Positions 1,075 to 35,880 are shown, numbered from the stretch's first letter. The stretch: DNA of 36,868 nucleotides from a virus (IMGVR_UViG_3300026521_000196:1-36868), one strand, 5' to 3'. The notes: a model not told the origin generated them from the letters alone. A program made the numbers and translations.

Positions 1075-1112
1075 AATGACAAATGGAATGGACTTGGAAT
1101 ATGTCAAAAAAA
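1046..1112 (+). repeat. 42-bp-period direct duplication at the polymerase gene 5' end
   Basis: ATGGACTTGGAATATGTC plus seven A occurs at 1046-1070 and again at 1088-1112, where an eighth A follows. The period is 42 bp, a multiple of three. The first copy forms the C-terminus of the 87-aa ORF; the second lies just ahead of the likely polymerase start. With seven As the second copy would read in frame into the polymerase. Confidence 0.85.
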
Positions 1113-1136
1113 ATTCAAAACAAAAAGGAAATTGCT

Positions 1137-3572
1137 ATGATAGATTTAACAAAAAAACAAATTGAAATAGAAAAAGCTCAAAATGAAGAAGCTAAAAATA
1201 TATACAAAAAAAGATTAATTGAACAAGAAGATAAAGGAAATCTTGATATAACAGCAGAAGGAATGATTTTAATAAAATTAGGTCTTGATACTGTTGCTGA
1301 TAAAGTTAGAGAATTCTTATTAGATGATTCATTTTCAACTAATATGAGAGGAAAACAAAACTTAATAAATTTTTTATCTAATGGTGATGAATATTTAATT
1401 TCTTATATTGCTTTAAAAACTTTATTAAGAACAAGTAAAAGTGATAAAGTTAGTTTAGTTAAAACTTCTGAAATGATTTCAGATGCTTTATTAGATAATA
1501 ATGCTTATCAAAGTATAAAAGAAAATGATAAGAAATTATTTGTTACAATAGAAAGAAAATTTAAAAAACTAAAAGGTGTTAATAAGAATAAATTATTAGC
1601 AAAAGAATTAGATAACAAAAGAATGGGAATAGATAAGTCTTCAAAAATAGAAATAGGTAGTATAATTATTGATTTAGTTATAAAATCTGGTGCTAATATA
1701 ATTGAAATAGAAAAACAAAAAAACATAAGAAAAACAAATACAATAAGAATAACAGATTATGCTTATTCTATAATTTTTGAAATAGCAAAAAATAACTTAA
1801 ATAGAATAGATAACAATATGTTACCAATGATTGTTAAACCAAAACCTTGGACAAGTTTTTATAATGGTGGATATTTATATAATAAATTACCAATAGTTAA
1901 AGTAAGAGATTCTAAAATAAGAAACAAATATAAATCTGATTTCAAAAAATATTTAGATAAAGTTAATGCTTTAAATAAATTACAAGAAGATGCTTTTGTT
2001 GTTAATAAAAAAGTTTTAGAAGTATTAAATTATATAATAGATAATAAAGTTTATGATAAGAATTCTTCAAAGTTTTTTCCAAGATTAGTAGCTGGATTAC
2101 CTGCTATTGATTTATTTAAAGCAGAAGAATTAGTTGATGGTGAAGAATATAAAGATATAAATGAATATTATAAAAAGTTATATGAAGTTAAAGAAGATTT
2201 AGAAGCTGATAGAAGTAGAACTTTAAATTTACTTAAAACAGTTGGAATTGCTAATGATTTTAAAGATTATGAAGAATTATATTTTGTTTATCAATTTGAT
2301 ACAAGATATAGAAAATATACACATCAAAGTTTTCTAACACCACAGGGTAAAGACTATTCAAAAGCATTGTTAAATAAAAAAGAATATGTAGAACTTGATG
2401 AAGTAGGAATTAAATGGTTTAAAATTCATACTGCTAATGTTTTTGGTAAAGATAAAGAATTATTAGAAGATAGAATTAAATGGTTTGATGAAAATATAGA
2501 ATTAATTAAAAATGTTGCTGAAATGCCAATAGAAAATATGGAACTTTGGATTAATGTTGATAGTCCATTTGAATTTTTAAGTTCTTGTTTTGCTTATATG
2601 GATTTAGAAAATACTGGTAAAACTAATTTACCTATTCAAATAGATGCTACTTGTTCAGGATTACAGATATTTGCTGGTTTAATGCTTGATAAAAAAGGTG
2701 CTGAAAATGTTAATGTTGTTAATAAATATAATGAAAATGGAGTTGCTTTAAGAAGTGATATTTATAAAATAGTAAGTGATGAAGATAATAGAATGTTATT
2801 AAATGGAGAATATAACAAAACTATAACTATAAATAAACAAGAAGGAGAAAAAGAAACAGTAGATTTAACTAAAATAGCAAGTGAAATATCAGGTAAAATT
2901 GATAGAAGTATTGTTAAAAGAAATGTTATGACATTATCATATAATGCAACAAGAGAAGGTATGAAAAATCAACTTAAAGATGTAGTTAAAAAAATGAATA
3001 CTAAAAATAAAAAGTTCTGGAAAGAAGAAGATTGGAAATTTGTTAGATTAGTATTAGATTTAAATGAAAAAAGTATGGATAAAAATATAAAAGGAGCAAG
3101 AGTAGGTCAGAAGTTTTTAAATGAATTAGCAGTTGCTAAGAAAGATTTTTTAAATTATAATACACCTTTATATTCTTGTCCTGTTTATTCAACTTCTTTT
3201 ACTTATAAAGAAAAAAGAATTAATACTACAATTGGAAAATTAACAGTATTAGAAAAAACAAATAAAGTAAATACAAGAAAACAGAAGTCAAGTTTTGCTC
3301 CTAATTTTATACATAGTCTTGATGCTGAATTATTAGATTATGTTATAAATGAAAGTGAATTTGATATTAGTGCTATACATGATTGTTTTATAATTAATCC
3401 TAATGAAGCAGAAAAAGTTAGAGAACTTTTTAGAGAAGGTTTTATTAAAATGATGGAAAAACAACCACTTAAATTATTAGAAATAAGCAATGTTGAAACT
3501 GGAATAACAATTGAATTAATAAATGATTTAAACTTAGAAGATGTTAAAAAAGCAGAATATATATTATCTTAA
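1137..3572 (+). CDS. Single-subunit T7-type DNA-directed RNA polymerase
   Basis: 811 aa from the start chosen here; T7 RNAP has 883. It would transcribe middle and late genes from phage-specific promoters. Visible motifs: motif A IDATCSGLQ with catalytic Asp503, motif B RSIVKRNVMTLSYN with Lys594 and the Tyr of the T7 MTLAYG element, FAPNFIHSLDA (T7 APNFVHS), and motif C IHDC with catalytic Asp749. The specificity-loop segment before FAPNFIHS differs fully from T7, so its promoter must differ. An in-frame ATG at 1083 exists, but 1137 has the better Shine-Dalgarno (AAAAAGGAAATTGCTATG) and its product begins at a helix like T7 residues 15-35. The gene lies between early promoters and the 4363 terminator, as T7 gene 1. 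Confidence 0.97.
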   Translation: MIDLTKKQIEIEKAQNEEAKNIYKKRLIEQEDKGNLDITAEGMILIKLGLDTVADKVREFLLDDSFSTNMRGKQNLINFLSNGDEYLISYIALKTLLRTSKSDKVSLVKTSEMISDALLDNNAYQSIKENDKKLFVTIERKFKKLKGVNKNKLLAKELDNKRMGIDKSSKIEIGSIIIDLVIKSGANIIEIEKQKNIRKTNTIRITDYAYSIIFEIAKNNLNRIDNNMLPMIVKPKPWTSFYNGGYLYNKLPIVKVRDSKIRNKYKSDFKKYLDKVNALNKLQEDAFVVNKKVLEVLNYIIDNKVYDKNSSKFFPRLVAGLPAIDLFKAEELVDGEEYKDINEYYKKLYEVKEDLEADRSRTLNLLKTVGIANDFKDYEELYFVYQFDTRYRKYTHQSFLTPQGKDYSKALLNKKEYVELDEVGIKWFKIHTANVFGKDKELLEDRIKWFDENIELIKNVAEMPIENMELWINVDSPFEFLSSCFAYMDLENTGKTNLPIQIDATCSGLQIFAGLMLDKKGAENVNVVNKYNENGVALRSDIYKIVSDEDNRMLLNGEYNKTITINKQEGEKETVDLTKIASEISGKIDRSIVKRNVMTLSYNATREGMKNQLKDVVKKMNTKNKKFWKEEDWKFVRLVLDLNEKSMDKNIKGARVGQKFLNELAVAKKDFLNYNTPLYSCPVYSTSFTYKEKRINTTIGKLTVLEKTNKVNTRKQKSSFAPNFIHSLDAELLDYVINESEFDISAIHDCFIINPNEAEKVRELFREGFIKMMEKQPLKLLEISNVETGITIELINDLNLEDVKKAEYILS

Positions 3573-3590: not shown

Positions 3591-4340
3591 ATGAATTATA
3601 AAGAAATAAATAAAAATATAGATAAAACAATGGAAGAACTTTATCTTTATCAAGGTAAGGTTTTAAGTGAATTAAAAAAAGAGTTAAATAGTAAAATGTT
3701 TTATACACAAGCAAGAAAATTATTTAATATAGATAAAATGAAAACTAATAAACTTGTAGAATTTTATGAGTTAGTAAATAACAGTGAATATGAATTACCA
3801 AAAAACTTTGAGATTTTTATGTTAATTTATGATAAGCTTAGAAATGAAGACAAGAATGCAAAAGGTATATCAAAAATCTATAATATACTTAAATTAAGCA
3901 ATGATTATATAACAAAAAATATTGTTATAGAATATTTTAATAATAAAATACTTGAAGATATAAGAAATAGAGGTAAAAAAAGATTAAGAAATAGAGTTAA
4001 AGATGTTATTGAAGATGAAAGTTTTGATATAAACCTTTTTAATTTTGATATTAAAACAAGAATAGAAAAAGAAGCAGAAGAAAAAGTTATAGAAAAATAT
4101 AATAATAATACTGTTTATTTTTTCAAAGAATGGAATAAAGAAATTGGAAAACTTGATGAACTATTTGATGAACTTAAAGAAGAAACTTTAAAAGAAAATA
4201 TGGATACAAAAATAATAGCAAAAATTTCTAATGATATTAATAAAATAAAAAAAGAAGAAAAAGTTAAACTTAAAAAACTAAATGAAATATTAGAATTTAA
4301 AAAACAATATGTATCTTCTCAAAATCATAGATTACATTAA
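3591..4340 (+). CDS. Last early-region protein, unknown function
   Basis: 249 aa, start after AAAAAGGAAATCAAATG, 18 bp behind the polymerase gene and 22 bp before the early terminator. Predicted almost entirely helical and very rich in Lys, Glu and Asn, with a basic patch RNRGKKRLRNRVKD around residues 127-140 and a coiled coil at the C-terminus. No enzyme motif visible. Co-transcription with the polymerase and the basic patch would fit a nucleic-acid-binding or host-modifying early protein, but this is inference only. Confidence 0.85.
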   Translation: MNYKEINKNIDKTMEELYLYQGKVLSELKKELNSKMFYTQARKLFNIDKMKTNKLVEFYELVNNSEYELPKNFEIFMLIYDKLRNEDKNAKGISKIYNILKLSNDYITKNIVIEYFNNKILEDIRNRGKKRLRNRVKDVIEDESFDINLFNFDIKTRIEKEAEEKVIEKYNNNTVYFFKEWNKEIGKLDELFDELKEETLKENMDTKIIAKISNDINKIKKEEKVKLKKLNEILEFKKQYVSSQNHRLH

Positions 4341-4362
4341 AAATTAAAACAACTTAATATTT

Positions 4363-4410
4363 AAAAGCCCAATGTTGTATGTTTAATTACATATGATGTT
4401 GGGCTTTTTT
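4363..4410 (+). terminator. Strong rho-independent terminator closing the early region (TE position)
   Basis: AAAAGCCCAA at 4363-4372 pairs with TTGGGCTTTT, and the stem continues through G-U pairs to TATG/CATA, giving about 19 bp with an 8-base loop (TTTAATTA) and a run of six T. It sits directly behind the polymerase-linked gene, where T7 places its early terminator. Confidence 0.9.
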
Positions 4411-5166
4411 GGTTTAATTATATTTTTAAAATACTTAAATGTATAATTAAGCTAAAAACTATACCTATTTTTATTGTTTTAATTTTTATACAGTATTTTA
4501 TAACAATTACTTAAAAGGTATATCAGAAATTAGAAATAACATATAATTATTACTATTCTTATAACTATAATTATCTTAAAATTAAGTATATATTAAATAA
4601 CAGGTATATAACTGAAATTAAATAACATATACAACTGCTGAAAGCAGTATAGTTACCATTACTGAATTCTACACAAAATACACTTAGACACTGTTAAAAA
4701 ATACTAAAACAGTTAAAACAGTTAAATTTAAAAAAATAGTGGAATAGTGCTAACTCCCTAAAATAGGTATGTATAGTATATATATATTCTTATAGACAGT
4801 ATTATATATAAAATAGTATAGTAAATAAAAATAATATATATATATATATATAATATAAAAAAATAATCTATAAGGAGTTTTAGCCATTTTTAGTGGTTTT
4901 CGTGTCCAAGACTTAAAAACAATGAAAAAATCATAATAATTTACAGTCTCATTATGTGTCTATATAAAAAAATATACATCATTTATAGTATATTTTACTT
5001 AATTTTTAACAATTCCTGTTAAAATATGTTAAAAAATATTAAAAATTAAATAACAAAAAAAAACAAAAAATAACATAGACATTAAAATTTTATCATTTTC
5101 ATTTTTAAAAAATTAAATATAAAATACTTAAAAATTAAAAATAACTAATAAAAAACTTACAAATAT

Positions 5167-5189
5167 ATTAAAAATTAAATTCTGAATTT
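5167..5189 (+). promoter_or_regulatory. 23-bp recurring motif, variant copy
   Basis: Matches ATTAAAAATAAATTCCTGAATTT in 20 of 23 positions. Lies in the non-coding hub, upstream of the 21-bp tandem array. Candidate phage-polymerase promoter or protein-binding site. Confidence 0.5.
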
Positions 5190-5241
5190 CTTCTTAGAAC
5201 ATAACATGAGAACAAAAATATAATATATTTATACATAAAAC

Positions 5242-5325
5242 AACTTATATTTAGAGTAAAATAACTTATATTTGTATCAAAATAGATTATATTTAGAGTA
5301 AAATAAGTTATATTTAGAGTAAAAT
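5242..5325. repeat. Four tandem 21-bp units (iteron-like array)
   Basis: Units begin at 5242, 5263, 5284 and 5305; consensus AAGTTATATTTAGAGTAAAAT. Unit 2 diverges in the middle (TTGTATCAAAAT) and a partial fifth unit starts at 5326. A 21-bp period is two helical turns, which puts each copy on the same face of DNA, as in iterons bound by replication initiators. There are no spacers, so it is not a CRISPR array. Confidence 0.9.
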
Positions 5326-5330
5326 AAGTT

Positions 5331-5424
5331 ATAAAATATAAACATTATATATATATAGTAAGCATAAAATAAGAAAAAAACTAATAAAATATAAACCTTA
5401 TATATATATATAGTAAGCACAAAA
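5331..5424. repeat. Two 38-40-bp direct repeats with a TA core
   Basis: Copies at 5331-5368 and 5385-5424 share TAAAATATAAAC, a (TA)n tract and AGTAAGCA followed by AAAA. They follow the 21-bp array directly. The TA core is easily melted, consistent with a DNA-unwinding element. Confidence 0.85.
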
Positions 5425-5434
5425 CAATAAAGAT

Positions 5435-5457
5435 ATTAAAAATAAATTCCTGAATTA
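5435..5457 (+). promoter_or_regulatory. 23-bp recurring motif, copy in the hub
   Basis: 22 of 23 match to ATTAAAAATAAATTCCTGAATTT, differing only in the last base. Eleven bases behind the 38-40-bp repeat pair. Confidence 0.6.
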
Positions 5458-5480
5458 CTAATATATATATAACAAATAAA

Positions 5481-5524
5481 AGTATAAATAAAGTATAAAT
5501 AAAGTATAAATAAAGTATAAATAA
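5481..5524. repeat. Four perfect 11-bp tandem units
   Basis: AGTATAAATAA repeated without change at 5481, 5492, 5503 and 5514. The period is about one helical turn. Probably part of the same origin-like region. Confidence 0.85.
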
Positions 5525-5840
5525 ATAATAAAAAATAACTTAATATTAAACACTATACTATATAAATAATAAAATAAATAAAAGATGAAGAACTAAAACA
5601 AAGAAAAAAAAAAGAAAACTTTTCCAAAACAATAAGCACATTTCAAATTATAAAGAAGAGAGATAATTAGATAATTAGATAATTAATTAATGTTCGTTTA
5701 GACAAGCTAAACTCAACAGTCATTTTTGATAAATCAAAAAAAACTGAATATAAATTAGTTAGTAGTATTTATTTTAAATAATAAATATATAGTATTATAT
5801 ATATATAGTATAGTGTTTTACACAATATATGGAAATGAGA

Positions 5841-5863
5841 TAATTCAGGAATTTTTTTATAAT
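5841..5863 (-). promoter_or_regulatory. 23-bp recurring motif, inverted copy
   Basis: The minus strand reads ATTATAAAAAAATTCCTGAA followed by TTA, 20 of 23 to the consensus. It points against the gene direction, which argues for a binding or replication role for at least this copy, or for antisense transcription. Confidence 0.45.
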
Positions 5864-5961
5864 ACATAGTTTTAGACAGTATTTTTAACACAATAATGTA
5901 TAAAAAATAAATAGCTAATTATAATGATAATATCAATATATTTTAATGTTTTTATATTAAG

Positions 5962-5979
5962 TTTAGACACTATTAGAGA
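5962..5979 (+). promoter_or_regulatory. Candidate phage RNA polymerase promoter before the middle genes
   Basis: TTTAGACACTATTAGAGA. It shares GACACTAT with the SP6 promoter and CACTAT plus a purine-rich start with T7. The same TAGACACTATTAGAGA recurs at 24330-24345. A transcript starting near 5975 would open with the 29-bp hairpin at 5986-6109. That it is used by the polymerase encoded at 1137 is inference. Confidence 0.55.
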
Positions 5980-5985
5980 AAATAC

Positions 5986-6109
5986 AGTGAGATTTTAATT
6001 AAGACTTAATAACAAGATTATTCCTTTATGTTTTGTTTTTGTTTTTAATTTCATATATTAATTCCTTTTAATATTTTAAATGTTATTAAGTCTTAATTAA
6101 AATCTCACT
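5986..6109 (+). repeat. 29-bp perfect inverted repeat, RNA hairpin ahead of the middle operon
   Basis: Left arm 5986-6014 (AGTGAGATTTTAATTAAGAC then TTAATAACA) is the exact reverse complement of 6081-6109; loop 66 bases. The right arm ends 17 bases before the start codon at 6127, leaving the ribosome binding site AAAAAGGAC single-stranded. Likely an RNase III processing site or 5' stabilising structure of the middle transcript. Confidence 0.9.
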
Positions 6110-6126
6110 ATAAAAAGGACAAACAA

Positions 6127-6435
6127 ATGATTACAAAAAATGATATTAGAGTTTCAACAGAAGATAACAATTTATGGATAACAAAAGAAGCAGGTATATG
6201 TTTTAGAGTTAAAAACAGTATAAGTGCTGAGGAGTTACATTTATTTGAAAAACATAATAGAGATATTGATGATATTATGAAAAGAGAATTATTAAATAAA
6301 ATATATGGAGAAATACAAGATACAGTAAATGAGTTACATAATATAGTAATGTCAAGTGTTAGACCAGAAACAGATACAAGAAGAATGGATGAATTATTTC
6401 AAAAAATATCAGAAATAACTACTGGTGGTGAATAA
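6127..6435 (+). CDS. First middle-region protein, unknown
   Basis: 102 aa, start after AAAAAGGACAAACAAATG directly behind the 29-bp hairpin. Mixed alpha/beta N-terminus (VSTEDNNLWITKEAGICFRV) followed by helices, no recognised motif and no membrane segment. Its stop overlaps the start of the next gene (TAATG), so the two are translationally coupled. First gene behind the candidate phage promoter, so probably abundantly expressed. Confidence 0.85.
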   Translation: MITKNDIRVSTEDNNLWITKEAGICFRVKNSISAEELHLFEKHNRDIDDIMKRELLNKIYGEIQDTVNELHNIVMSSVRPETDTRRMDELFQKISEITTGGE

Positions 6436-6611
6436 TGATTGATTTTATAATTATTTCACCAATGTTTATAATAGTAGGATATATGTATTATTTAAATATA
6501 AAAAATATATATAATAGTGAAAGTATTAACAAAGAATTAGAAAATGAACAATGTAATGATTTGTTTATTATTGAAATTCAAGAAGACATAATACAAAAAA
6601 ACAAAATATAA
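6435..6611 (+). CDS. Small membrane protein
   Basis: 58 aa, starting inside TAATG at the end of the preceding gene. Residues 3-20 (DFIIISPMFIIVGYMYYL) form one transmembrane helix near the N-terminus, followed by an acidic cytoplasmic or periplasmic tail of about 38 residues. No Shine-Dalgarno of its own beyond GGTGG, in keeping with coupled translation. Function unknown; such single-TM proteins in phage middle regions may act on the host envelope, which cannot be shown here. Confidence 0.7.
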   Translation: MIDFIIISPMFIIVGYMYYLNIKNIYNSESINKELENEQCNDLFIIEIQEDIIQKNKI

Positions 6612-6634
6612 CATTAATTAAAAAAGGACATCAA

Positions 6635-6907
6635 ATGTATAACAATGAAACAAAAGAAGTATATTATATAAATGAAAAAGGTTTAATAGTATCAAAAATA
6701 GTTCAAGAAGATTTACCAGTTTTAGTAGTAGTAGAAATGAAAGAAACATATTTACATAAATTAGAAACAGTTAAACATGAATTAACTATAAGTGAATATA
6801 ATACTTTTAATAATGGAATAAGAAGAAGATACTTTGTAGCTGGTAGTAGAATAGGTGAAAAAGAATTAATAATTAAAATATTAGAAGAAAAAGGTATGAT
6901 AAAATGA
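6635..6907 (+). CDS. Small protein, unknown
   Basis: 90 aa, start after AAAAAGGACATCAAATG. The N-terminal 35 residues look like a beta-hairpin unit (EVYYINEKGLIVSK, PVLVVVEMKE), the rest helical and basic (NGIRRRYFVAG). No known family recognised. It overlaps the next gene by four bases (ATGA), placing it in a tight operon with the two following coiled-coil proteins. Confidence 0.85.
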   Translation: MYNNETKEVYYINEKGLIVSKIVQEDLPVLVVVEMKETYLHKLETVKHELTISEYNTFNNGIRRRYFVAGSRIGEKELIIKILEEKGMIK

Positions 6908-7131
6908 TTGAAGAAACATTAAAATTATTATCATATGATGAATTATATTTATTAAGAGAAGGATTATTATTAAGAATTGAAGAATTAGAAAAAGAATTAG
7001 AAGAAAATATAGAAGAAGAAAATAAATTTAATATATTAGAAACAATGGAACAAGATGATTATCTAATAAATCAAATGAATATTGCTAATTCAATGATATG
7101 TGATATAAATGAAACATTAAAAAACAAATAA
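6904..7131 (+). CDS. Small acidic coiled-coil protein
   Basis: 75 aa, start in an ATGA overlap with the gene before. The sequence is helical throughout; residues 18-45 (LREGLLLRIEELEKELEENI and on) form an acidic coiled coil. No catalytic motif. Probably a binding or scaffold partner of a neighbouring protein; function unknown. Confidence 0.8.
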   Translation: MIEETLKLLSYDELYLLREGLLLRIEELEKELEENIEEENKFNILETMEQDDYLINQMNIANSMICDINETLKNK

Positions 7132-7145
7132 AAAAGGACAAACAA

Positions 7146-7493
7146 ATGGATATAACAGTATTAATAGAAAGTTTAAAACAAGATAAAAAAGAATTGGAAG
7201 AAAAAGTAAATAATTTATTCTATGCTAATTGTGATTTACAAGGTTATGCTACTGCTAAAAAAAATGAATTAGCAGAATTAAAAAGATATGTTAAAAAATT
7301 AGAAGAAAAAAATAAAGTATTAGAAGAACAAGTAGAACAATTATGTATGGAAAAAGATATGTATGTTAATGGTGCTATAAAATCAGAAAATGAAACATTA
7401 AAAGAAGAATTAAATTTAATGTATTTTGAAAATTCAGCTCTTAGTTCTTCTATAAATGAATTAGAAGAAAAACTTAAATTATATAAAAAATAA
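7146..7493 (+). CDS. Coiled-coil protein upstream of the helicase
   Basis: 115 aa, preceded by AAAAAGGACAAACAAATG. Helical along nearly its whole length with Leu/Ile heptads, most clearly LAELKRYVKKLEEKNKVLEE at about 42-61 and again near the C-terminus. Contains two Cys in the first half (YANCDLQ, LCMEK) but no zinc-binding arrangement. It lies 24 bp ahead of the helicase, so a role in replication is possible but not shown. Confidence 0.85.
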   Translation: MDITVLIESLKQDKKELEEKVNNLFYANCDLQGYATAKKNELAELKRYVKKLEEKNKVLEEQVEQLCMEKDMYVNGAIKSENETLKEELNLMYFENSALSSSINELEEKLKLYKK

Positions 7494-7517
7494 CATAAAA
7501 TAACAAAAAGGAATGAT

Positions 7518-9167
7518 ATGGCTAATTATAAAAGTTTAGAAGAATATGATAGGTTAATTAGCCTATCAGAATATGAAAAAGATATGGCTATTGAAGAAGA
7601 AAGACCTCATAAAATGTTAGATGATAAAATTAAAAAGTTAAAAGATACAAGAAAAAGAGCAGAAGAATTTAATAATAAAAAACAAAAGGAAGAAAACTTA
7701 ATGGATAAAATTAAACAAACAAAAGAGCAGCAAGAAGAAATGATGGAAATTATTAAAAAAAAAATTCTGAATTTTACTTTATTTGAAGAAACAGGATTTA
7801 AATATTTCTATTCTATTGATAAACAAAAGTTACAAAGAATGTATATTAAAACTGGAATATGTACTGATATAACAAATATTAAAATGATGAGATTATTAGA
7901 AGAAGAGTTTGGAATAAATAGTAAAATATCAAAGAACCTTTTGAATTATTTTCCTGAGTTGCATTTAGATTTTAATCCACATAAAGAGCAAATATATTTA
8001 AATGAGCAAACAGGTTTAAATAATTATAATACTTTTATTAAACCAAAGATATTAAAAGAAAATGAGTTTATTAAATTAGAAATAGATGAAGGTGAGATTG
8101 AATTAAAAGATTTTGATTGGAGTAAATTTAAGTATATAGATATGTTATTCAGAAATTTATTTTATAAAGATGATAAAATGAGAGAACATTGGATGAATTG
8201 GTTTGCTTATATTTTACAAACATTAGATAAAACATTAATGACTTTTGTATTTACAGGAGCACAAGGTGCTGGTAAAGGAATATTATTTAAATATATAATA
8301 CAATATGTATTTGGTAAATATGCTATTGAAATAGATAGTAAAAGCATACATAGTAATTTTAATAGTTTAATGGAAAATAAATTATTTGTATGGGGAAATG
8401 AAATTAAACAAACTGATAAAAATAAAAGAGATGGTGATTATAATGTTTTAAAAACTATTATAACTGATAAAGATTTAAGAATTGAAAAGAAAGGTGTGGA
8501 TTCAAAAATAGTAGAGAATTTTTTTAACACTTCATTTTCTTCTAATGAAAGTAATCCTTTACAAGTTGAAGTTACTGATAGAAGATATAACTTTGTTGAA
8601 ACATTTTCTGATATAAAAAAAGTATATGAAAAAGAAGGTATAGGAATAGATGAAATAATAGATGGTATAGTTGAAGAAAGAGAAAGATTTATAAAAGATT
8701 TATTAAGAATTAAAACTGATAAAAAGAAAGCTAATAATGCTTTAATGAATAATAAGAAAAGAAAAGTTATAAATGCTACTGAAAGTTTAAGTAATAATAT
8801 AGTTAAAATATTAAAAGACAAAGATTGGGAATTATTAGAAGATTTTGTATATGATAACAATGAAGAAAATTATGAGAATAGTGCTTTTATACAATCTATT
8901 AAAAATAGTGCTGAATGTAATTATATAACTAATAAAGATTTATTAAAATTATATAAAATGTGTTCAACTATTGGAGATAAAATAACAGATAATGCAATAG
9001 CAAGAATGTTTAATAATGATTTTTATAATAGTGAAAAGAAAAGAGTTTATATTAAAAATAAAAAAGAAACAATAAGAATTATAAATAAATATGAAGAAGT
9101 AGATTTAGAAAGAGAATTTGAGTTTGATATAGATAAAGAAACAGGACTTGTTATAGGTAATAAATAA
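7518..9167 (+). CDS. Superfamily 3 helicase, D5/DUF5906 type, probable replicative helicase
   Basis: 549 aa. N-terminal 60-80 residues are a charged coiled coil; the middle holds a D5-like preceding region. The ATPase core shows Walker A GAQGAGKG (247-254, Lys253), Walker B-like LFVWGNE (289-295), a sensor-like NTSFSSNESNP (337-347) and a probable arginine finger DRRY (354-357). This arrangement is typical of phage SF3 helicases that load at an origin. I see no primase Cys cluster or palm motif. T7 relatives use a DnaB-family primase-helicase here, so this is a replacement. It is the only clear replication enzyme in the genome and a candidate partner for the 21-bp repeats. A copy of the 23-bp motif lies inside it (7752-7774). 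Confidence 0.88.
   Translation: MANYKSLEEYDRLISLSEYEKDMAIEEERPHKMLDDKIKKLKDTRKRAEEFNNKKQKEENLMDKIKQTKEQQEEMMEIIKKKILNFTLFEETGFKYFYSIDKQKLQRMYIKTGICTDITNIKMMRLLEEEFGINSKISKNLLNYFPELHLDFNPHKEQIYLNEQTGLNNYNTFIKPKILKENEFIKLEIDEGEIELKDFDWSKFKYIDMLFRNLFYKDDKMREHWMNWFAYILQTLDKTLMTFVFTGAQGAGKGILFKYIIQYVFGKYAIEIDSKSIHSNFNSLMENKLFVWGNEIKQTDKNKRDGDYNVLKTIITDKDLRIEKKGVDSKIVENFFNTSFSSNESNPLQVEVTDRRYNFVETFSDIKKVYEKEGIGIDEIIDGIVEERERFIKDLLRIKTDKKKANNALMNNKKRKVINATESLSNNIVKILKDKDWELLEDFVYDNNEENYENSAFIQSIKNSAECNYITNKDLLKLYKMCSTIGDKITDNAIARMFNNDFYNSEKKRVYIKNKKETIRIINKYEEVDLEREFEFDIDKETGLVIGNK
7752..7774 (+). promoter_or_regulatory. 23-bp recurring motif, variant copy inside the helicase gene
   Basis: 20 of 23 match to the consensus, within codons for about residues 79-86. 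Because it lies in A-rich coding DNA it may be chance; listed for completeness. Confidence 0.3.
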
Positions 9168-9178
9168 AAAGGATAAAT

Positions 9179-9616
9179 ATGGAAACAGTTTATAATATGA
9201 AAAAATTATTAAAAAAGAAAACAAGAATTGGTGTATTAAGAAATATGAAAAACTATGTTGCTATAACAGATGAAGTAGCTCAAAGTTTTATGATATTAAT
9301 ATTGAATTTTGAAGGAATAGATGAAAACTATTTTGAAGATTTAAAAAAACATTATAATAAACATAGATATGCTCCAAGGTTTATATTAACTAATTTTAAA
9401 ACAGAAGAAGAAATAGATAAATATATAAGAATATTAACATATTCAAAAAACAAAGCAGATTATTTTTTAACTTATAAAGATATAAAAAAAGATTGTGCTG
9501 ATATATATGAAGAAAAAGAAATAGATGAAAATGGTAAATGGGTTGATTTTGATAATTATTATAAAGAAGTAAAAGATAAATGTAACATAAAATATTCAAT
9601 TAAAATTGAAGATTAA
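9179..9616 (+). CDS. Unknown protein after the helicase
   Basis: 145 aa, start after AAAAAGGATAAATATG, 11 bp behind the helicase. Predicted soluble alpha/beta protein with a very basic first 25 residues (MKKLLKKKTRIGVLRNMKNY). Several Cys near the C-terminus but not in pairs. Position next to the helicase would suit a single-strand binding or replication accessory protein, but no OB-fold signature is visible, so I leave it unnamed. Confidence 0.85.
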   Translation: METVYNMKKLLKKKTRIGVLRNMKNYVAITDEVAQSFMILILNFEGIDENYFEDLKKHYNKHRYAPRFILTNFKTEEEIDKYIRILTYSKNKADYFLTYKDIKKDCADIYEEKEIDENGKWVDFDNYYKEVKDKCNIKYSIKIED

Positions 9617-9632
9617 AAAAAAAAGGACTAAT

Positions 9633-9761
9633 ATGAAAACAATTAAAAAATACATTAAAAATAAATTCCTGAATTTGATTATAAATATAGCATTATTATT
9701 TATAATATGTTCAAGAAAAACATTAGAAATACATAAATATTTAGAGAATAAAAATGGCTAA
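9633..9761 (+). CDS. Tiny membrane protein carrying the 23-bp motif in its coding sequence
   Basis: 42 aa, start after AAAAAGGACTAATATG. Residues 12-27 (FLNLIINIALLFIICS) form one membrane segment behind a basic N-terminus (KTIKKYIKNK). Its end overlaps the methyltransferase start by eight bases (ATGGCTAA). The 23-bp motif at 9654-9676 lies in codons 8-15, so the ORF may be real, or may be a remnant into which a regulatory element was placed. Confidence 0.5.
   Translation: MKTIKKYIKNKFLNLIINIALLFIICSRKTLEIHKYLENKNG
9654..9676 (+). promoter_or_regulatory. 23-bp recurring motif upstream of the methyltransferase
   Basis: Exact consensus: ATTAAAAATAAATTCCTGAA then TTT, identical over 23 bases to the copy at 34971. 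It stands 78 bases before the methyltransferase start. Candidate promoter for the methyltransferase-to-HNH gene group. Confidence 0.6.
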
Positions 9762-10353
9762 TTTAAATATAAAAAATAAAAAAGAAAAAGAATCAACTAT
9801 ATTTACACCTGATGAATTATCATATTATATATATAAAATAATAAGAGAACAATATTATCCAGAAATTATATTTGACCCTTGTATTGGAGTAAGTGGTGGT
9901 ATGACTAAGTATTTCAAAAAAGAAGGATTTAAAATAATAGGTGCTGATATAGATGAAAATTCAAAAGAAGTATGTGATATATTTTATCATAAAAGTATAA
10001 AAGATATTAAAGAATATTCAAAAGAGTTTAAACCTGAATTAGTAGTAATGAATCCACCATTCAATGGAAATGGAAGAAAAGACTTATTATTTCCACATTT
10101 ATTTTTAAAGAATATATTTGAAGAATTTGGTTATGATATGAAAGTAGTAATGATAACAGGTGATAACTTTTTAAATAATAATAGAAAAAAATCAAAAAGA
10201 TTAAAATGGATAAGTGATAATAATATAAATATAACAAGTATAATGACTTTACCACTTGATATTTTTGATGGTGTATTATTTAATTGTCAAGTATTATTTT
10301 TTAATATGCCAAAACTTAAACCATACTATATATTTGATATAGATAAAATATAA
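9754..10353 (+). CDS. DNA adenine N6-methyltransferase
   Basis: 199 aa. AdoMet-binding motif FDPCIGVSGGM (40-50), second acidic strand IIGADIDE, and catalytic NPPF (100-103) in VVMNPPFNG identify an N6-adenine methyltransferase of the type common in phages. The C-terminal target-recognition part is short, so it is probably a compact orphan enzyme. No cognate endonuclease is adjacent, so it is more likely to protect phage DNA from host restriction or mark it than to form a restriction pair. The first 15 residues are a lysine-rich tail. Confidence 0.85.
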   Translation: MANLNIKNKKEKESTIFTPDELSYYIYKIIREQYYPEIIFDPCIGVSGGMTKYFKKEGFKIIGADIDENSKEVCDIFYHKSIKDIKEYSKEFKPELVVMNPPFNGNGRKDLLFPHLFLKNIFEEFGYDMKVVMITGDNFLNNNRKKSKRLKWISDNNINITSIMTLPLDIFDGVLFNCQVLFFNMPKLKPYYIFDIDKI

Positions 10354-10362
10354 AGGACAAAT

Positions 10363-10818
10363 ATGAGAATAATAAAAATAAAGTTACCAATAAGAATAAG
10401 TGATAGACCAAAACAAGAGAAAGAAGGAAAGAGAAAAAGAAGAGAACCAAAGAAGTATTTTTTGAACTTAAATGTTTATAGAAACTTAAATATGCATGTT
10501 AATAATAATTTAAAGATAATGTTTAAAAAAGAAGTAGTTAAATTATTAGAAGAACAAGGAATAGAAAAAAACTTAAAATTAAAACATATTGAAGTTGATT
10601 ATGAATTATTTTTTCCAGATAAAAGAGGAAGAGATATAATGAATGTAGGAAGTATAGTGGATAAGTTTGCTTTGGATGCTATTGTTGAATATGGAATAAT
10701 AGAAGATGATAATTATAAGTTTATAAAAAGTCAAAGTTTTAAGTTTGGTGGGTTTGATAAAAATAAAGAAGGTTATGCTATTATGACTATTAAAGAGGTG
10801 TTAAATGAAGATATATAA
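10363..10818 (+). CDS. RusA-like Holliday junction resolvase
   Basis: 151 aa, ten bases behind the methyltransferase. The signature DKRGRDIMNVGSIVDKF (86-102) followed by LDAIVEYGIIEDDNY (104-118) matches the RusA arrangement of Asp residues near the active site. In E. coli RusA the first element is RDLDN; here the second Asp is Met93, so Asp91, Asp100 and Asp115/116 would be the metal ligands. The first 30 residues are very basic (EGKRKRREPKK), fitting DNA binding. Would resolve branched replication intermediates before packaging, the job of gp3 in T7. Confidence 0.75.
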   Translation: MRIIKIKLPIRISDRPKQEKEGKRKRREPKKYFLNLNVYRNLNMHVNNNLKIMFKKEVVKLLEEQGIEKNLKLKHIEVDYELFFPDKRGRDIMNVGSIVDKFALDAIVEYGIIEDDNYKFIKSQSFKFGGFDKNKEGYAIMTIKEVLNEDI

Positions 10819-11080
10819 AAAAGATTATTGTAGTGCTATTAATGAATATATTGATGGTGTATATATAGGTGATTGTTGTAAAAAACATGATAATGAATGT
10901 GGTGAAAAAGGTAGTTATGGAATATTAAATTCAGTAATTATTTTTTACAATTGTTTAATAAATAGAATAGATTTAACAAGAACTATTATTATAGTTTTTG
11001 GTGGAACATTGTTTTATATATTAAAATATCCATATTTAGCATATAAAAAATATTTATATAGAAAAAATAAAAATAAATAA
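10805..11080 (+). CDS. Phospholipase A2-like small membrane protein
   Basis: 91 aa, overlapping the resolvase end by 14 bases. Residues 8-33 contain CSAINEYIDGVYIGDCCKKH then DNEC: a CC-x-x-HD core like the phospholipase A2 active site, with further Cys for disulphides. Residues about 59-74 (TRTIIIVFGGTLFYIL) form a membrane helix and the tail is basic. Phages carry short proteins with a CCxxHD core followed by a hydrophobic aromatic C-terminus, and this fits that pattern. Action on host membrane lipids, for instance in lysis, is possible; the fold assignment rests on one motif. Confidence 0.5.
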   Translation: MKIYKKDYCSAINEYIDGVYIGDCCKKHDNECGEKGSYGILNSVIIFYNCLINRIDLTRTIIIVFGGTLFYILKYPYLAYKKYLYRKNKNK

Positions 11081-11099
11081 AAAAGATAAAGGACAAGTT

Positions 11100-11360
11100 A
11101 TGAAAAAAATTATATTATTAATAAGTGGTTTAATGTTATCATTAAATTTAAATGCTTCTATTATAGAAGGAAATGAAATTAAATTAAAAGTTTTAAATAT
11201 TGGAAAACAATATGATAGAGTTATTAGTTGTTCTAAACTTCCAACTGAGATTTGGATATTAGATAAATTTTTAGCAAACTTAAAAGATTATCAAATAGTT
11301 GAATGTGGTGAATATGAATATATTGCTAAAACAAAATCTTGGTATAAAAAAATTAGATAA
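11100..11360 (+). CDS. Small secreted (periplasmic) protein
   Basis: 86 aa. MKKIILLISGLMLSLNLNAS is a textbook Sec signal peptide, likely cut after Ala19 or Ser20. The mature part has about 66 residues and two Cys (ISCSK, IVECGEY) that could form a disulphide in the periplasm. It has no known domain. In a phage a lone secreted protein often modifies the envelope, for example in superinfection exclusion or lysis control; function here unknown. The signal peptide style supports a Gram-negative host. Confidence 0.8.
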   Translation: MKKIILLISGLMLSLNLNASIIEGNEIKLKVLNIGKQYDRVISCSKLPTEIWILDKFLANLKDYQIVECGEYEYIAKTKSWYKKIR

Positions 11361-11369
11361 GGAAAACTT

Positions 11370-11615
11370 ATGAAAAAAGAAATAAAAGAAACAATGATAG
11401 ATGATATAGTAGAAGAAAATATTTCTAATTTTATACAAGATATTGAAAATAGTAGAGATAAAATAGAAACAATGTTAGATAGAGGTGAAGTATTAGCAAA
11501 GAGAGCTATTAAACAATTAGAAAAAAATAAAGAATTTAAGATTGAAGATGAATATGATTTTAAAATGTTGAAAATGTATGTTAGACAAGGACTTAAATTA
11601 GAAGAGTTAATATAA
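11370..11615 (+). CDS. Small helical protein, unknown
   Basis: 81 aa, nine bases behind the secreted-protein gene. All-helical and acidic at the N-terminus (KETMIDDIVEENISNFIQDI). Its stop overlaps the HNH start (ATAATG), so translation is coupled. No domain recognised. Confidence 0.82.
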   Translation: MKKEIKETMIDDIVEENISNFIQDIENSRDKIETMLDRGEVLAKRAIKQLEKNKEFKIEDEYDFKMLKMYVRQGLKLEELI

Positions 11616-11896
11616 TGACTTCAAAAGAAAAGAAAGTAAAAAGAAGAAGAGAAAGAAGAAGAGAAAGTAAAGTAAGATTAATAGAATACAAAGGTGGAAA
11701 ATGTGAAGATTGTGGATTAGAATATGATGGAACTAATCCTTATGCTTTTGATTTTCACCATATTAATCCAGAAGAAAAAGAATTTAGTTTATCTGCTAAA
11801 AAAGATTTATCATTTGATAAATTAATAAAAGAAGTTGATAAATGTATGATGTTATGTAAATTATGTCATAGTAAGTTTCATTTTTATAATGGTTGA
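11615..11896 (+). CDS. HNH endonuclease
   Basis: 93 aa. A very basic N-terminus (KKVKRRRERRRESKVR) is followed by CEDC (30-33), the HNH core FDFHHINPEEKEF with the catalytic HH, and a second zinc pair CMMLCKLCHSKFH. This is the compact HNH of homing or free-standing phage nucleases. It ends with TGA, one proof that TGA is a stop here. It could be a selfish homing gene or work with packaging or recombination; it is not next to the terminase, so the former is likelier. Confidence 0.88.
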   Translation: MTSKEKKVKRRRERRRESKVRLIEYKGGKCEDCGLEYDGTNPYAFDFHHINPEEKEFSLSAKKDLSFDKLIKEVDKCMMLCKLCHSKFHFYNG

Positions 11897-16730: not shown

Positions 16731-16741
16731 TTAAGCAAAAT

Positions 16742-16764
16742 ATTAAAAATAAATTTCTGAATTT
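16742..16764 (+). promoter_or_regulatory. 23-bp recurring motif between capsid terminator and tail genes
   Basis: 22 of 23 match (ATTAAAAATAAATTTCTGAA then TTT). Lies 12 bases after the terminator and 94 before the tail tubular A gene, an apt place for a promoter restarting transcription. Confidence 0.6.
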
Positions 16765-17447: not shown

Positions 17448-20135
17448 ATGAGTTTATTTAATAGAACATTGCCTAATCTGGCACAAGGTGTTTCAAAACA
17501 ATTTGTTGAAAATAGATTTGAAACTCAAAGTGAAGAGATGATAAACTGTATTCCTGATATAACAAGAGGAATTTTAAGAAGAAATCCTTTACAAAAATTA
17601 GAAAATAGTATTTTAATTAATACAAAAGGTGAAACTATAAATCCTAATGAATATTATTCTTACTCTTATGAAAGAGGTTCTAATAGAAATGAAATGTATA
17701 TTATTTTATTAGGTCATAAAGAATGGTATGTTTTTGATTTTAATGGTAAAATTGTTTCTGATTATTTGATGTATGAAGAAAATTCAGAAATTAATTTAGA
17801 ATATCTGTCTTGTATAGATGAATATGGAATATTAAGAAGTCCTAATGAAGTTTTTGAATTAATGACAGTAGGTGATTATACTTTTATTTTAAATAAATTA
17901 TTTACAACAAGAATGAAAAATAAAATAGATGGTATAGAGAATAGTCATTTGAGAACAGCAGTATATTGGATTAAACAAACAGGTTTAGTAGCTGTTCAGA
18001 CACATCCAGATAGTGGAACTGTTGTTTTTGAAGGACATAAATTTCATTTAAGATTAGGTGAATCAAAAGGTGGAGCACAAGCAAATACTAATGTAAAAAC
18101 AACAGATGAAGTAGCAAGATTTATACAATATGAAATAAATGGAAAAATAGAAGATAATGGAAATATATATAATACAGAAGGACCTTATTATAAAGAAGGT
18201 TTTAAATGGGAAGTATATACAACTAATGATAATTGGATGGGTGGAACTAATGAATATCATTTAACAGTTTATTGGAATGGAAAAATATTAAAAGAAGCTA
18301 AAAGTTATAATTATGATGAAATATATGAACTTAAAGAATTTTCAATTGGTGATGAAACTTATAAAAAAGGAAAAAAAACTTCTAATTATTTAGGATATGG
18401 TGGTGCAAGTGTTGAAGGTTATAAAGTTGAAAAAGAATTATTAATAGAAACAAATGCTGTTGAAGGAAATTGGCATGTAAGTGGTTCTATATTATATAAT
18501 AAATTAGCAAATATTGATGATAGATTTGAATGGGATGATACTTTTGGAAACACAGCAAGTTTTGGTTTTAAAGGTGAAGTAGCAAAAGCAGAAGATTTAC
18601 CTGAAAATTTACCAGAATCTTTAAATGGATTATTAGTTAAAGTTGGTAATGGAGAAGATACTTCATATTGGTTAAAATGGAATAATTCTGCTTGGGAAGA
18701 AAGTTTGGCACCAGGATTAAAAAATAATATAGATGAAAATACTATGCCACATGTATTTATAAGAAATGATGATGGAACTTTTAGTTTTGGTTTTTATGGT
18801 AAATATGATGGAACTACTAATGAAAATGGTGAATTAAATTTATTAAATATTAGTAAATGGAAATATAGAGAAGTTGGTGATTATGATACTTCACCAAATC
18901 CTTCATTTATTGATAAAAAAATAAATAACATGTTTTCACATAATAATAGATTAGGATTATTATCAGAAAATAATGTTATATTATCTGAAACAGCAGAATA
19001 TGGAAGTTTTTTTCCTACTACTTTAATAAATATACCTGATACTGATGTTATAGATTTAGCAGTTGCTACACAAGAAGTTACTGGTTTAGAAAGAGCTTTA
19101 TCTATAAATAGTAGTATAATATTATTTAGTAAATCAAGTCAATTTACTTTATTTGGAAATGGTGGAGTATTATCTCCTAATAATGCTGAAATTGTTCAAT
19201 TATCTAATTATGATTATAATGATAAAGCAAAAGCTTTACAATATAAAGATAGTATAATTTTTACTTCTCAAAGTGGAAATGGTAGTAATATACTTTCATT
19301 TAAAATAAATAGTATATCTAATAATACTTCTGCTGTTGCTGATACTTTAAATTCACATGTTAAAAATTATATAGATTATGATATAACTAAAATTGTTTCT
19401 AACTCTAATTTAAATTATATATTTATATTTTCTAAAAATAAACCAAATGAAATAGTAGTTCAAAATCTTGAATATTATGGTGGTAATATGATACAAAATG
19501 CTTTTCATAAGTGGAAATTTTCAGTTGATATATTAGATATAAACATTTTAGATAATTTTTTATATATAGTTTCAAGAGATTTAGATTATATGTATATTAA
19601 TAAAATTGATTTATCAATTCCAAAAGATATAAATATAATAGAATATTTAGATAAATATAGTAATAATTTAGAAAAAACTTATAATAGTGAAATACATTTT
19701 AGTAAGTTTTATATAAAAGATGAAAAAAATAATGGAAATAAAAGAGGAAGACTTCAAATAAAAACACTATTATATACAATAACAGAAGATAGTTATTATA
19801 AAACTTTTATAACAAATTTAAATGTTTTAAAAAGAAGAAACTTTGATAATTTTGTTTTAAATAAAGATAATAAATATAATGATGAAGGAAATTGGTGTGA
19901 TTATCAATCAGAAACTTTGATAGAAGATTGTGAAGGAACATTAGATACAGTTTGGTTTGATTTAAATAATTTTAATTTTAGAGAATATATAAATGATGAA
20001 AAAGTAACTGTAATGGGAAATAATGAACAAATACAAATAAAATTTACAAATAATGAAGAAAATCCTACAAAAGGTTTTGAATTAGCAACAGTTAATTATG
20101 AAGCAAGTTTTAATAGTAGGTCAAGGAGAATTTAA
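17448..20135 (+). CDS. Tail tubular protein B (T7 gp12 type), tail nozzle
   Basis: 895 aa (T7 gp12 is 794). Starts with NRTLPNLAQGVSKQFVENRF and QSEEMINCIPDITRGILRRN, the conserved gp12 opening in which the protein is described as having many binding sites for the tail. Middle beta-propeller regions include FSHNNRLGLLSENNVILSET and SQFTLFGNGGVLSPNNAEIV. About 100 residues longer than T7, mostly in residues 240-460, which may be a domain insertion exposed on the nozzle. Overlaps the tailspike start by one base. Confidence 0.95.
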   Translation: MSLFNRTLPNLAQGVSKQFVENRFETQSEEMINCIPDITRGILRRNPLQKLENSILINTKGETINPNEYYSYSYERGSNRNEMYIILLGHKEWYVFDFNGKIVSDYLMYEENSEINLEYLSCIDEYGILRSPNEVFELMTVGDYTFILNKLFTTRMKNKIDGIENSHLRTAVYWIKQTGLVAVQTHPDSGTVVFEGHKFHLRLGESKGGAQANTNVKTTDEVARFIQYEINGKIEDNGNIYNTEGPYYKEGFKWEVYTTNDNWMGGTNEYHLTVYWNGKILKEAKSYNYDEIYELKEFSIGDETYKKGKKTSNYLGYGGASVEGYKVEKELLIETNAVEGNWHVSGSILYNKLANIDDRFEWDDTFGNTASFGFKGEVAKAEDLPENLPESLNGLLVKVGNGEDTSYWLKWNNSAWEESLAPGLKNNIDENTMPHVFIRNDDGTFSFGFYGKYDGTTNENGELNLLNISKWKYREVGDYDTSPNPSFIDKKINNMFSHNNRLGLLSENNVILSETAEYGSFFPTTLINIPDTDVIDLAVATQEVTGLERALSINSSIILFSKSSQFTLFGNGGVLSPNNAEIVQLSNYDYNDKAKALQYKDSIIFTSQSGNGSNILSFKINSISNNTSAVADTLNSHVKNYIDYDITKIVSNSNLNYIFIFSKNKPNEIVVQNLEYYGGNMIQNAFHKWKFSVDILDINILDNFLYIVSRDLDYMYINKIDLSIPKDINIIEYLDKYSNNLEKTYNSEIHFSKFYIKDEKNNGNKRGRLQIKTLLYTITEDSYYKTFITNLNVLKRRNFDNFVLNKDNKYNDEGNWCDYQSETLIEDCEGTLDTVWFDLNNFNFREYINDEKVTVMGNNEQIQIKFTNNEENPTKGFELATVNYEASFNSRSRRI

Positions 20136-22414
20136 TGGTAAGCACAAAAAAATTTATAGTTGATGGAAACACTAAAAGTTTCATATCAGATTTTATTATT
20201 AAATCAGAAGAACATGTAAGAGTATATATTTATGAATATAAACCTGATTGTACTTTTGATTGTGAAACAATAGGTGATAAAGGATATTATATAAGACAAA
20301 TTGATGCTCCATTATCAAATGACCTTGTATCAGTTGAGAAATATGAATTAATAGATAATAGAATATCTTTTTATAATAAGTATATTCCAAAAGGTGGTCT
20401 AACTTTATGGATAGAAGTAGCTACTAATAGTGATGAATTTGGGGATATTTTAACTACTCCATTAGTAGAAGAAGCAAAAAAATCAGCAGAAGAAGCAAAA
20501 AATTCATTAATTGAAATAAAAGAAATAGAAGAAGATTTTAATGAAAAATATTTAGGTTCATTAGAAACTGAACCAACAGAAGGATTTATAGAAGGAAGTA
20601 TGTTTTATAATAATAATATAAAACAACTTAAAATATATAAAGAAAATGGTTGGGAAATAGTTCCAACTTTTGAAAATTTATCTGCTTCTTGGAAAGATGT
20701 TACTGGAAAACCTTTTAAAAGTGTTAAAGAATATGGAGCAATTGGTGATGGAGTTACTGATGATACATTAGCAATACAAAATGCTATTAATTCTGGTAAT
20801 CCAATATTGCTTGAAGTAGGAAACTATTTAATATCAAATACTTTGATAATTAAAAAAGGAACTATAATATATGGTTTTGGAAAAGGTAATTCTATAATAA
20901 CATTAGCATATGGTTCAAATTGTGATATGATTAAAAGTGAAAATTTTGATAATTATACTGGTGGAGAATATGCAAATGTTTGTCCTACTGATATTATATT
21001 AAAAGATTTTTCTTTAAATGGAAATTATTTTGAAAAAGGTTGGTTAGAAGAAGATAATGTAAAAAGAAACACTTCTGGTGCTGGTATAAAACTTTATGCT
21101 CGAAGATATGAAGTAGATTTACATATATTAAATATAGCTGGTGTTGGATTTTATACAGAGTGTTCTGGAAGTGAAGGTGATGATAAAATAGCAGGTTTAA
21201 AAGATACAAATATAAAACTTTATGTTTTACAAACAGGTAAAGAAGGAGTTATATTCAGAGGACCTTCTGATATTATATTTGAAAAAGGATTTGTTGGTTT
21301 AGCAGGAGCATTAACAACTGATGAACAAGGTGAAATAGTTCCTACTTCTGATTATTATCCAGATACAAATAGAATAGATGGTATTGTTTTTGATAGATAT
21401 TATGATACTGATTTAGCTAAATATATATATCAAGGTAGTTGTGAAATAGGAAAACTTCATTCATATGGATGTTGGAATGGTTTAGGTATAAATACTGTTG
21501 GAAAACCAAGAATAAAAGCAGACCAAATAATTTCAGAAAGTAATTTAGGTGGAATGTATCTAACAGAATATACAAGAACACAAATATCTAATTTAGCAAT
21601 TTTCAATAATATTGGTTATGAAAATGGTAAAGGTGATAATCCTGGTTTTAATCCATTTTTAAAAATAGATACAAAATATTCTCCTTGTGTTATATCAAAT
21701 TTAGAATTATATAGAACATTATATGGTAGTGGTGAAGATGCTTTACAAATAAATGGTGGTAATATAAGTATAGAACAATGTTCTTTATTTAATTCTACTG
21801 ATGCTGATGGTAATAAAAGAGCAGGTAATGGTATAGTTATAACTGGATATAATAATAATATAAGTTTTATGGCTAATGCTGTAAATGGATATGCTCTTGT
21901 AAGAGATACAGTTAGTAATTCTAAAAGAAATAATAGAATAAGTGGGAATATTATTGGATGTCCTTCTGGTGATGAAGCTAAAACAATAGGATTTAAATCT
22001 ATTGGAACACCAACAAGTGAATTAATAGATTTAACAATGGAATTATATGATGATGATATTCCATTTGAAGGTGATGCAGTTGATGAATATGGAAGAGCAC
22101 AAAATTGGAATATAGTTGGTAATACTTCTAATTCAAGATTTGGAACAAGAATTAGAAAAAATATAACTGCTGGAACTGATTTTGATGAAACTATAACTGA
22201 TGAACAAGTAGTAACAATTCCTCATGAATATTTATATAAACCTAATTTTATGAATGTAAGTTTTACAATAGGTTATGATACTGGTGATATTAGTGATGGT
22301 GAATTTGATTATGTAAGATTAAATAATATAACTGATACTGATTTAGTATTTAAAATTAAAATGAAAACTGCTGCTACAAGTAACAATACAAGAATAATTG
22401 TAAAAATAGATTAA
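20135..22414 (+). CDS. Tailspike with T7-type anchor and pectate-lyase beta-helix
   Basis: 759 aa, AAGGAG seven bases before ATG. Residues 1-125 are a gp17-like tail anchor (VEKYELIDNRISFYNKYIPK), then a short Ala/Glu helix. At about 195 begins the pectate_lyase_3 signature VKEYGAIGDGVTDDTLAIQN, opening a right-handed beta-helix up to about 640 with repeated short strands and Gly/Asn turns. The last 70 residues (VVTIPHEYLYKPNFMNVSFT and on) form a separate terminal domain, recurring in the next protein. Probably binds and cleaves a host surface polysaccharide. Specificity cannot be read from sequence. Confidence 0.9.
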   Translation: MVSTKKFIVDGNTKSFISDFIIKSEEHVRVYIYEYKPDCTFDCETIGDKGYYIRQIDAPLSNDLVSVEKYELIDNRISFYNKYIPKGGLTLWIEVATNSDEFGDILTTPLVEEAKKSAEEAKNSLIEIKEIEEDFNEKYLGSLETEPTEGFIEGSMFYNNNIKQLKIYKENGWEIVPTFENLSASWKDVTGKPFKSVKEYGAIGDGVTDDTLAIQNAINSGNPILLEVGNYLISNTLIIKKGTIIYGFGKGNSIITLAYGSNCDMIKSENFDNYTGGEYANVCPTDIILKDFSLNGNYFEKGWLEEDNVKRNTSGAGIKLYARRYEVDLHILNIAGVGFYTECSGSEGDDKIAGLKDTNIKLYVLQTGKEGVIFRGPSDIIFEKGFVGLAGALTTDEQGEIVPTSDYYPDTNRIDGIVFDRYYDTDLAKYIYQGSCEIGKLHSYGCWNGLGINTVGKPRIKADQIISESNLGGMYLTEYTRTQISNLAIFNNIGYENGKGDNPGFNPFLKIDTKYSPCVISNLELYRTLYGSGEDALQINGGNISIEQCSLFNSTDADGNKRAGNGIVITGYNNNISFMANAVNGYALVRDTVSNSKRNNRISGNIIGCPSGDEAKTIGFKSIGTPTSELIDLTMELYDDDIPFEGDAVDEYGRAQNWNIVGNTSNSRFGTRIRKNITAGTDFDETITDEQVVTIPHEYLYKPNFMNVSFTIGYDTGDISDGEFDYVRLNNITDTDLVFKIKMKTAATSNNTRIIVKID

Positions 22415-34944: not shown

Positions 34945-34970
34945 TTTAAAAGGACACTTAATGGAAATAT

Positions 34971-35850: not shown

Positions 35851-35880
35851 TATAGTTAAAAAGATAATAAAACAAATTAT

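Follow-up and report, generated by a model that had tools for sequence, protein, structure and literature searches.

A T7-type phage genome with its own RNA polymerase, a stand-alone NrS-1-type SF3 helicase and no recognisable DNA polymerase

Gene content and closure of the genome

The window analysed here is the whole 36,868-base record of the IMG/VR virus IMGVR_UViG_3300026521_000196, which has a GC content of 22% and a coding fraction of 87% in the 38 ORFs listed, all of them on one strand. Its genes and terminal repeat are as follows.

1-72 (copy at 36797-36868), no strand: terminal repeat, the overlap closing the contig; covers the start of ORF 21-602
1083-3572, plus strand: single-subunit T7-type RNA polymerase (RNAP), 829 aa (phrog_414, E 1.6e-154; Pfam RNA_pol, 3e-69)
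3591-4340, plus strand: orphan protein of 249 aa, the sole protein of more than 200 aa without an assigned family in the early region
7518-9167, plus strand: stand-alone SF3 helicase of the NrS-1 polymerase type, 549 aa, with Walker A at 247-254, K325 and R355/R356, and without an AEP domain
9179-9616, plus strand: orphan protein of 145 aa, directly 3' of the helicase gene
9754-10353, plus strand: N6-adenine methyltransferase, with phage matches to Lauvirus only (46%)
10363-10818, plus strand: RusA-like Holliday junction resolvase (phrog_1682, E 3.5e-24)
11615-11896, plus strand: HNH endonuclease (phrog_2255, 1.8e-22)
13052-34944, plus strand: virion and packaging genes, namely portal, scaffold, capsid, tubes, spike, internal core protein, TerS and TerL (profile and phage matches)

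An earlier sequence-only reading of this DNA had described a contig that closes on itself, and a repeat comparison within the contig confirms that bases 1-72 and 36797-36868 are 100% identical over 72 bp. Because this overlap spans the ribosome-binding site and first codons of ORF 21-602, it appears to have arisen in assembling a circular or terminally redundant molecule and not to represent native phage ends; it supports closure at the sequence level, which ranks below read-level proof. No tRNA genes were found in the 36.9-kb contig, and an Rfam search gave no match.

Several further repeats and compositional features were observed around the early genes. A GC-rich island at 35510-35585 (46%), inside a 785-bp noncoding stretch (16% GC) that separates TerL from the early genes, possibly marks a packaging or end region; as a folded-RNA gene it was rejected (folding z -0.7). 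At 35877-36749, a 124-nt repeat occurs in four imperfect copies that flank the small early ORFs 36072 and 36400, which have the common start MQNITK. A 42-nt direct repeat at 1038-1121 lies across the RNAP start; there, the DNA that ends ORF 811 is 81% identical to that which begins the RNAP gene.

T7-type transcription and virion genes

The RNAP motifs DATCSG, KRNVMTLSYN and IHDCF are readable in the translation of 1083-3572. T7 gene order is kept on one strand, with RNAP, portal (Pfam Head-tail_con, 3e-63), scaffold, capsid, TerS, tube and nozzle, gp16-like internal protein (phrog_342, 3e-64) and TerL all identified, the scaffold through a weak match under its cut-off. The window shares with Autographiviridae a single-subunit RNAP of its own and a T7-type portal, capsid, tubes and terminase in T7 order on one strand. 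SSB, gp4 and PolA are also counted among the essential genes of that family (PMC11092137), and PolA and gp4 of this replication set were not found. The tail spike at 20135-22414 contains a pectate-lyase-like domain (Pfam PF12708, 3.7e-13) and probably binds or degrades a surface glycan.

The best phage matches are to Roseobacter phage CRP-143 (RNAP 33%, portal 47%, TerL 47%) and Lauvirus. In a quick version of the RNAP tree, the window groups with CRP-143 and the IMG/VR relative L018 (SH-aLRT 97), then with Lau218 (100), and the cyanopodovirus P-SCSP2 is placed elsewhere, on a branch separate from the window's. The exact position is provisional because of long branches and unusual composition. 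An alignment-based scan with TerL, the other marker proposed earlier for comparison, retrieved CRP-143-like records only. While IMG/VR scans with the single helicase and RNAP proteins gave no relative, alignment-based scans gave 80 RNAP relatives and 80 helicase relatives. Across the RNAP, helicase and TerL scans, no second genome combining T7-type genes with a stand-alone SF3 helicase was found, and the gene plan described here comes from one metagenomic genome.

DNA polymerase and gp4 are not detected

Pfam scans of all 38 listed ORFs revealed no polymerase and no gp4-type primase, and PF00476 and Toprim_2 found nothing at E<=10 over the whole record, the same models being positive in 10/14 and 14/14 control genomes, respectively. 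Six-frame searches with profiles built from relatives' proteins returned noise only, both for PolA (48 proteins; best E 0.53) and for gp4 (60 proteins; best E 0.14). These family-A polymerase and T7 gp4 profiles recover both genes in dozens of relatives, and the gp4 profile finds the gp4 of P-SCSP2 at 5e-159. An SSB profile had no match in the window and also none in P-SCSP2, which belongs to the MPP-C clade reported with SSB (PMC9860041), so this profile is too insensitive to establish that SSB is absent. The earlier statements that no DNA polymerase and no primase-helicase are recognisable are upheld by these searches, in the latter case for gp4, and the profile searches that it had recommended, including those on the orphans at 3591 and 9179, gave no credible polymerase or primase match.

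All of the nearest relatives, namely CRP-143, its IMG/VR kin L017, L018 and L019, and Lau218, carry SSB, gp4 and PolA, and the absence of polymerase and gp4 in the window therefore looks like a derived state. PolA is also present in 6 of 7 other TerL relatives, the seventh being a 12-kb fragment. The expectation that T7 relatives carry gp5 and gp4 thus holds for the kin of CRP-143 and Lau218, but not for the MPP-C cyanopodoviruses, which are without DNA polymerase (PMC9860041).

The RusA-like resolvase, which had been recognised from the sequence and is supported by its profile match, is 39-43% identical to a gene located between SSB and gp4 in CRP-143, L017, L018 and L019. Since this gene survives, the T7-type cassette was probably replaced, with RusA as a relic of the T7-type replication module. 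The methyltransferase gene adjoins RusA.

The SF3 helicase resembles the C-terminal half of the NrS-1 primase-polymerase

The D5/DUF5906-like SF3 helicase previously proposed at 7518 is well supported, since ORF 7518-9167 matches DUF5906 (E 6e-19) and the helicase region in the C-terminal part of the solved NrS-1 primase-polymerase (PDB 6k9c; E 8e-33). A structure model built with 24 relatives in the alignment has a mean pLDDT of 74, with most of the helicase core at 80-96, and the ten best PDB hits in a fold search with this model are NrS-1 structures (E down to 8e-25), followed by SaPI PriRep1 and poxvirus D5/E5. In NrS-1, residues K453, K525, R555 and R556 are important for nucleotide hydrolysis and unwinding (PMC7102993), and the alignment places K253, K325, R355 and R356 at the equivalent positions here, so that the helicase domain is present with all of these catalytic residues.

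The N-terminal AEP primase-polymerase domain of the NrS-1 type is missing. The helicase is preceded by 204 residues, predicted to form a long helix and a poorly modelled, poorly conserved head region, and the protein has no match to the head and tail models that Pfam provides for NrS-1. Among 84 relatives, 68 have more than 400 aa ahead of the helicase and the other 16 are cut by the upstream edge of the fetched DNA; the 68 include near-duplicates and form 26 groups at about 75% identity. In a 25-member alignment, the relatives' N-terminal stretch has near-invariant D-x-D, S-x-S and H positions, as would be expected of an AEP. An AEP-half profile found nothing credible in the window, in frame or split, and a 103-aa ORF at 35985, considered as a lost AEP piece, was taken as noise (best E 0.011). 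By these comparisons, the helicase corresponds to a primase-polymerase that has lost the catalytic half.

The idea that an AEP-less helicase is in itself a unique form was rejected: BFVD contains fold matches of similarly short length (537-551 aa) from other phages, two of the three bearing the name NrS-1-like helicase protein, which suggests that shortness by itself may not set this protein apart. T7-type RNAP, portal or TerL had no match in any fetched locus of a helicase relative. On a 17-kb IMG/VR contig, L016, a 743-aa ORF was also noticed that encodes a close relative of the NrS-1 primase-polymerase.

A candidate origin in the AT-rich noncoding region

Between the early genes and the replication genes lies a long noncoding region, following the RNAP gene and one orphan and upstream of the helicase, that contains tandem repeats and copies of a 24-mer that recurs elsewhere in the window.

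4341-6126, no strand: AT-rich noncoding region, candidate replication origin (1786 bp, 16% GC, no ORF >47 aa)
5166-5189, plus strand: promoter-like 24-mer, 3 mismatches to TATTAAAAATAAATTCCTGAATTT
5224-5333, plus strand: 21-bp tandem repeats, possibly iterons, 5.2 copies (TRF score 134, reached by 0/500 dinucleotide shuffles)
5434-5457, plus strand: promoter-like 24-mer, 1 mismatch to TATTAAAAATAAATTCCTGAATTT
5474-5525, plus strand: 11-bp tandem repeats AAATAAAGTAT, 4.6 copies (TRF score 95, reached by 10/500 shuffles)
5841-5864, minus strand: promoter-like 24-mer, 3 mismatches to TATTAAAAATAAATTCCTGAATTT
5983-6112, no strand: inverted repeat with 32-nt arms, 97% complementary, just 5' of the ribosome-binding site of ORF 6127 (z -6.45, 0/200 shuffles)
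9653-9676, plus strand: promoter-like 24-mer, 1 mismatch to TATTAAAAATAAATTCCTGAATTT, before the methyltransferase gene
16741-16764, plus strand: promoter-like 24-mer, 1 mismatch to TATTAAAAATAAATTCCTGAATTT, after the capsid gene
34970-34993, plus strand: promoter-like 24-mer, perfect copy of TATTAAAAATAAATTCCTGAATTT, after TerL

At <=3 mismatches the 24-mer has seven matches in the window against 0.01 expected, the seventh, at 7751 inside the helicase gene, being doubtful. The placement of the copies would fit a promoter for the phage RNAP. Each of the two plus-strand copies in the region is followed by a tandem array, 5166-5189 by the 21-bp repeats and 5434-5457 by the 11-bp repeats. The primary origin of T7 has two tandem RNAP promoters ahead of an AT-rich stretch at the corresponding place, and on motif and position a replication origin at 4341-6126 is plausible. 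Self-loading initiator helicases of the SaPI Rep or Cch2 type bind specifically to iterons at an origin; in the window, the tandem repeats upstream of the operon are candidate sites for such binding.

Replication model and alternatives

The combination of T7-type transcription and virion genes with an NrS-1-family helicase is real. We consider it fairly probable, taking the explanation as a whole and its mechanism together, that this T7-type (Autographiviridae-like) genome from the CRP-143/Lauvirus branch is complete or almost so, and that an ancestral SSB-gp4-PolA cassette was replaced in it by a stand-alone SF3 helicase akin to the C-terminal half of NrS-1. Phage RNAP would transcribe from the promoter-like sites in 4341-6126, opening the region and supplying primers. 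The helicase would load in this region, possibly with its C-terminal part on the tandem repeats, and unwind the DNA; host DNA polymerase would extend from the phage transcripts, host DnaG would prime the lagging strand, and RusA would resolve branches ahead of packaging. The orphan encoded at 9179-9616, which has no credible family or phage match, is a possible helicase partner.

The sequence-only reading had proposed that the lineage keeps phage transcription and virion genes and hands DNA synthesis to a host replisome loaded by the SF3 helicase. Gene content bears out the hybrid plan. Dependence on host polymerase is probable by elimination, and we infer that the host supplies both polymerase and primase. 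Loading of the host replisome by the helicase is suggested by a single good biochemical parallel: the D5-type helicase Cch2 of SCCmec has no primase, unwinds in the 3'-5' direction and may, or probably does, load itself (PMC7581432). The fuller evolutionary claim is more tentative, and we hold it at a little short of even: that a T7-type lineage gave up its own polymerase, primase and helicase and initiates with its own RNAP and an SF3 initiator helicase that loads itself and descends from a primase-polymerase, leaving elongation to the host replisome.

Among other explanations, the one that comes closest, though unlikely, is a divergent polymerase or primase encoded in an orphan and working with the SF3 helicase. 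The strongest candidate would be 3591-4340; alternatively, 9179-9616 might act as a small partner comparable to the MP of SCCmec. Both orphans adjoin replication genes and match nothing (for 3591-4340, no credible Pfam, PHROG, PDB or phage match), and in SCCmec an unusual primase-polymerase and a small protein do pair with a primase-less helicase (PMC7581432). At 249 aa, however, the product of 3591-4340 is small for a polymerase, and the six frames hold no PolA or AEP signal; its AF2 model is all helix, with no palm-like sheet, but this low-confidence model (pLDDT 48) was made without homologues and is uninformative. It is less likely again that the helicase is an accessory repair or recombination factor and that host DnaB, DnaG and Pol III initiate alone, perhaps from phage RNAP transcripts, as the promoter-like sites in the AT-rich spacer and the poor conservation of the helicase head region might suggest; against this, the NrS-1, SaPI, SCCmec and poxvirus systems all use SF3 helicases of the same fold for replication, and the window shows no further recognisable replication helicase.

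Least probable of all is an ordinary T7 relative whose polymerase cassette was lost in assembly, in an incomplete or collapsed contig. Closure does depend on sequence alone, through a 72-bp overlap within a gene, and the genome is 2.5-6 kb shorter than those of Lau218 and CRP-143, yet the genes are contiguous and run in the same direction, RusA, the neighbour of gp4 in relatives, is kept where gp4 is not, and a different replication helicase occupies the place. The MPP-C phages, at 37.3-37.9 kb, indicate that a short polymerase-less T7-like genome is viable (PMC9860041). The assembly is probably not chimeric either, because RusA and the methyltransferase link the replication region to the phage branch of the other genes, and copies of one 24-mer are spread over the early, replication and virion parts.

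T7 replication is the textbook case of a near self-sufficient replisome. If the replacement of the cassette by an SF3 helicase is correct, the RNAP/virion module and the replisome module can be decoupled. Surveys that take DNA polymerase as a marker of T7-like phages miss such genomes, and the system would allow testing whether phage RNAP transcripts can prime host polymerase.

Comparison with known systems

The closest RNAP, portal, capsid, TerL and RusA are those of CRP-143 and Lauvirus lau218. Both phages differ from the window in having SSB, gp4 and PolA, and CRP-143 is without such a spacer after its RNAP gene. The primase-polymerase of the Nitratiruptor phage NrS-1 (PDB 6k9c; PMC7102993) has a homologous SF3 helicase with the Walker A lysine, the hairpin lysine and two arginines conserved; the window protein lacks its N-terminal primase-polymerase and HBD domains and, unlike that of NrS-1, belongs to a T7-type genome. 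Cch2, by description, is likewise a stand-alone D5-type helicase of about 540 aa with direct repeats in a nearby noncoding region, which it binds through its C-terminal domain, and host polymerase is thought to finish replication (PMC7581432). It differs in working with CCPol-MP, of which no counterpart was seen in the window.

The MPP-C cyanopodoviruses (P-SCSP2 and kin) likewise have a T7-type genome of 37-38 kb with its own RNAP and no DNA polymerase, and use of host polymerase has been proposed for them (PMC9860041). The hybrid plan had been called unusual at first reading, which overstated its novelty, as the MPP-C phages already combine T7-type RNAP with the lack of a DNA polymerase. P-SCSP2 keeps gp4 primase/helicase and exonuclease, in contrast to the window, where gp4 was not detected and an SF3 helicase is present. 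The literature searched, which lay mostly outside subscription journals, contained no case of an NrS-1-type helicase replacing both gp4 and polymerase. Polymerase-less T7 relatives are thus already known, and what appears to be new on these comparisons is the loss of gp4 together with the gain of a lone SF3 helicase, which, if true, would represent a second, apparently independent route to polymerase loss beside that of MPP-C.
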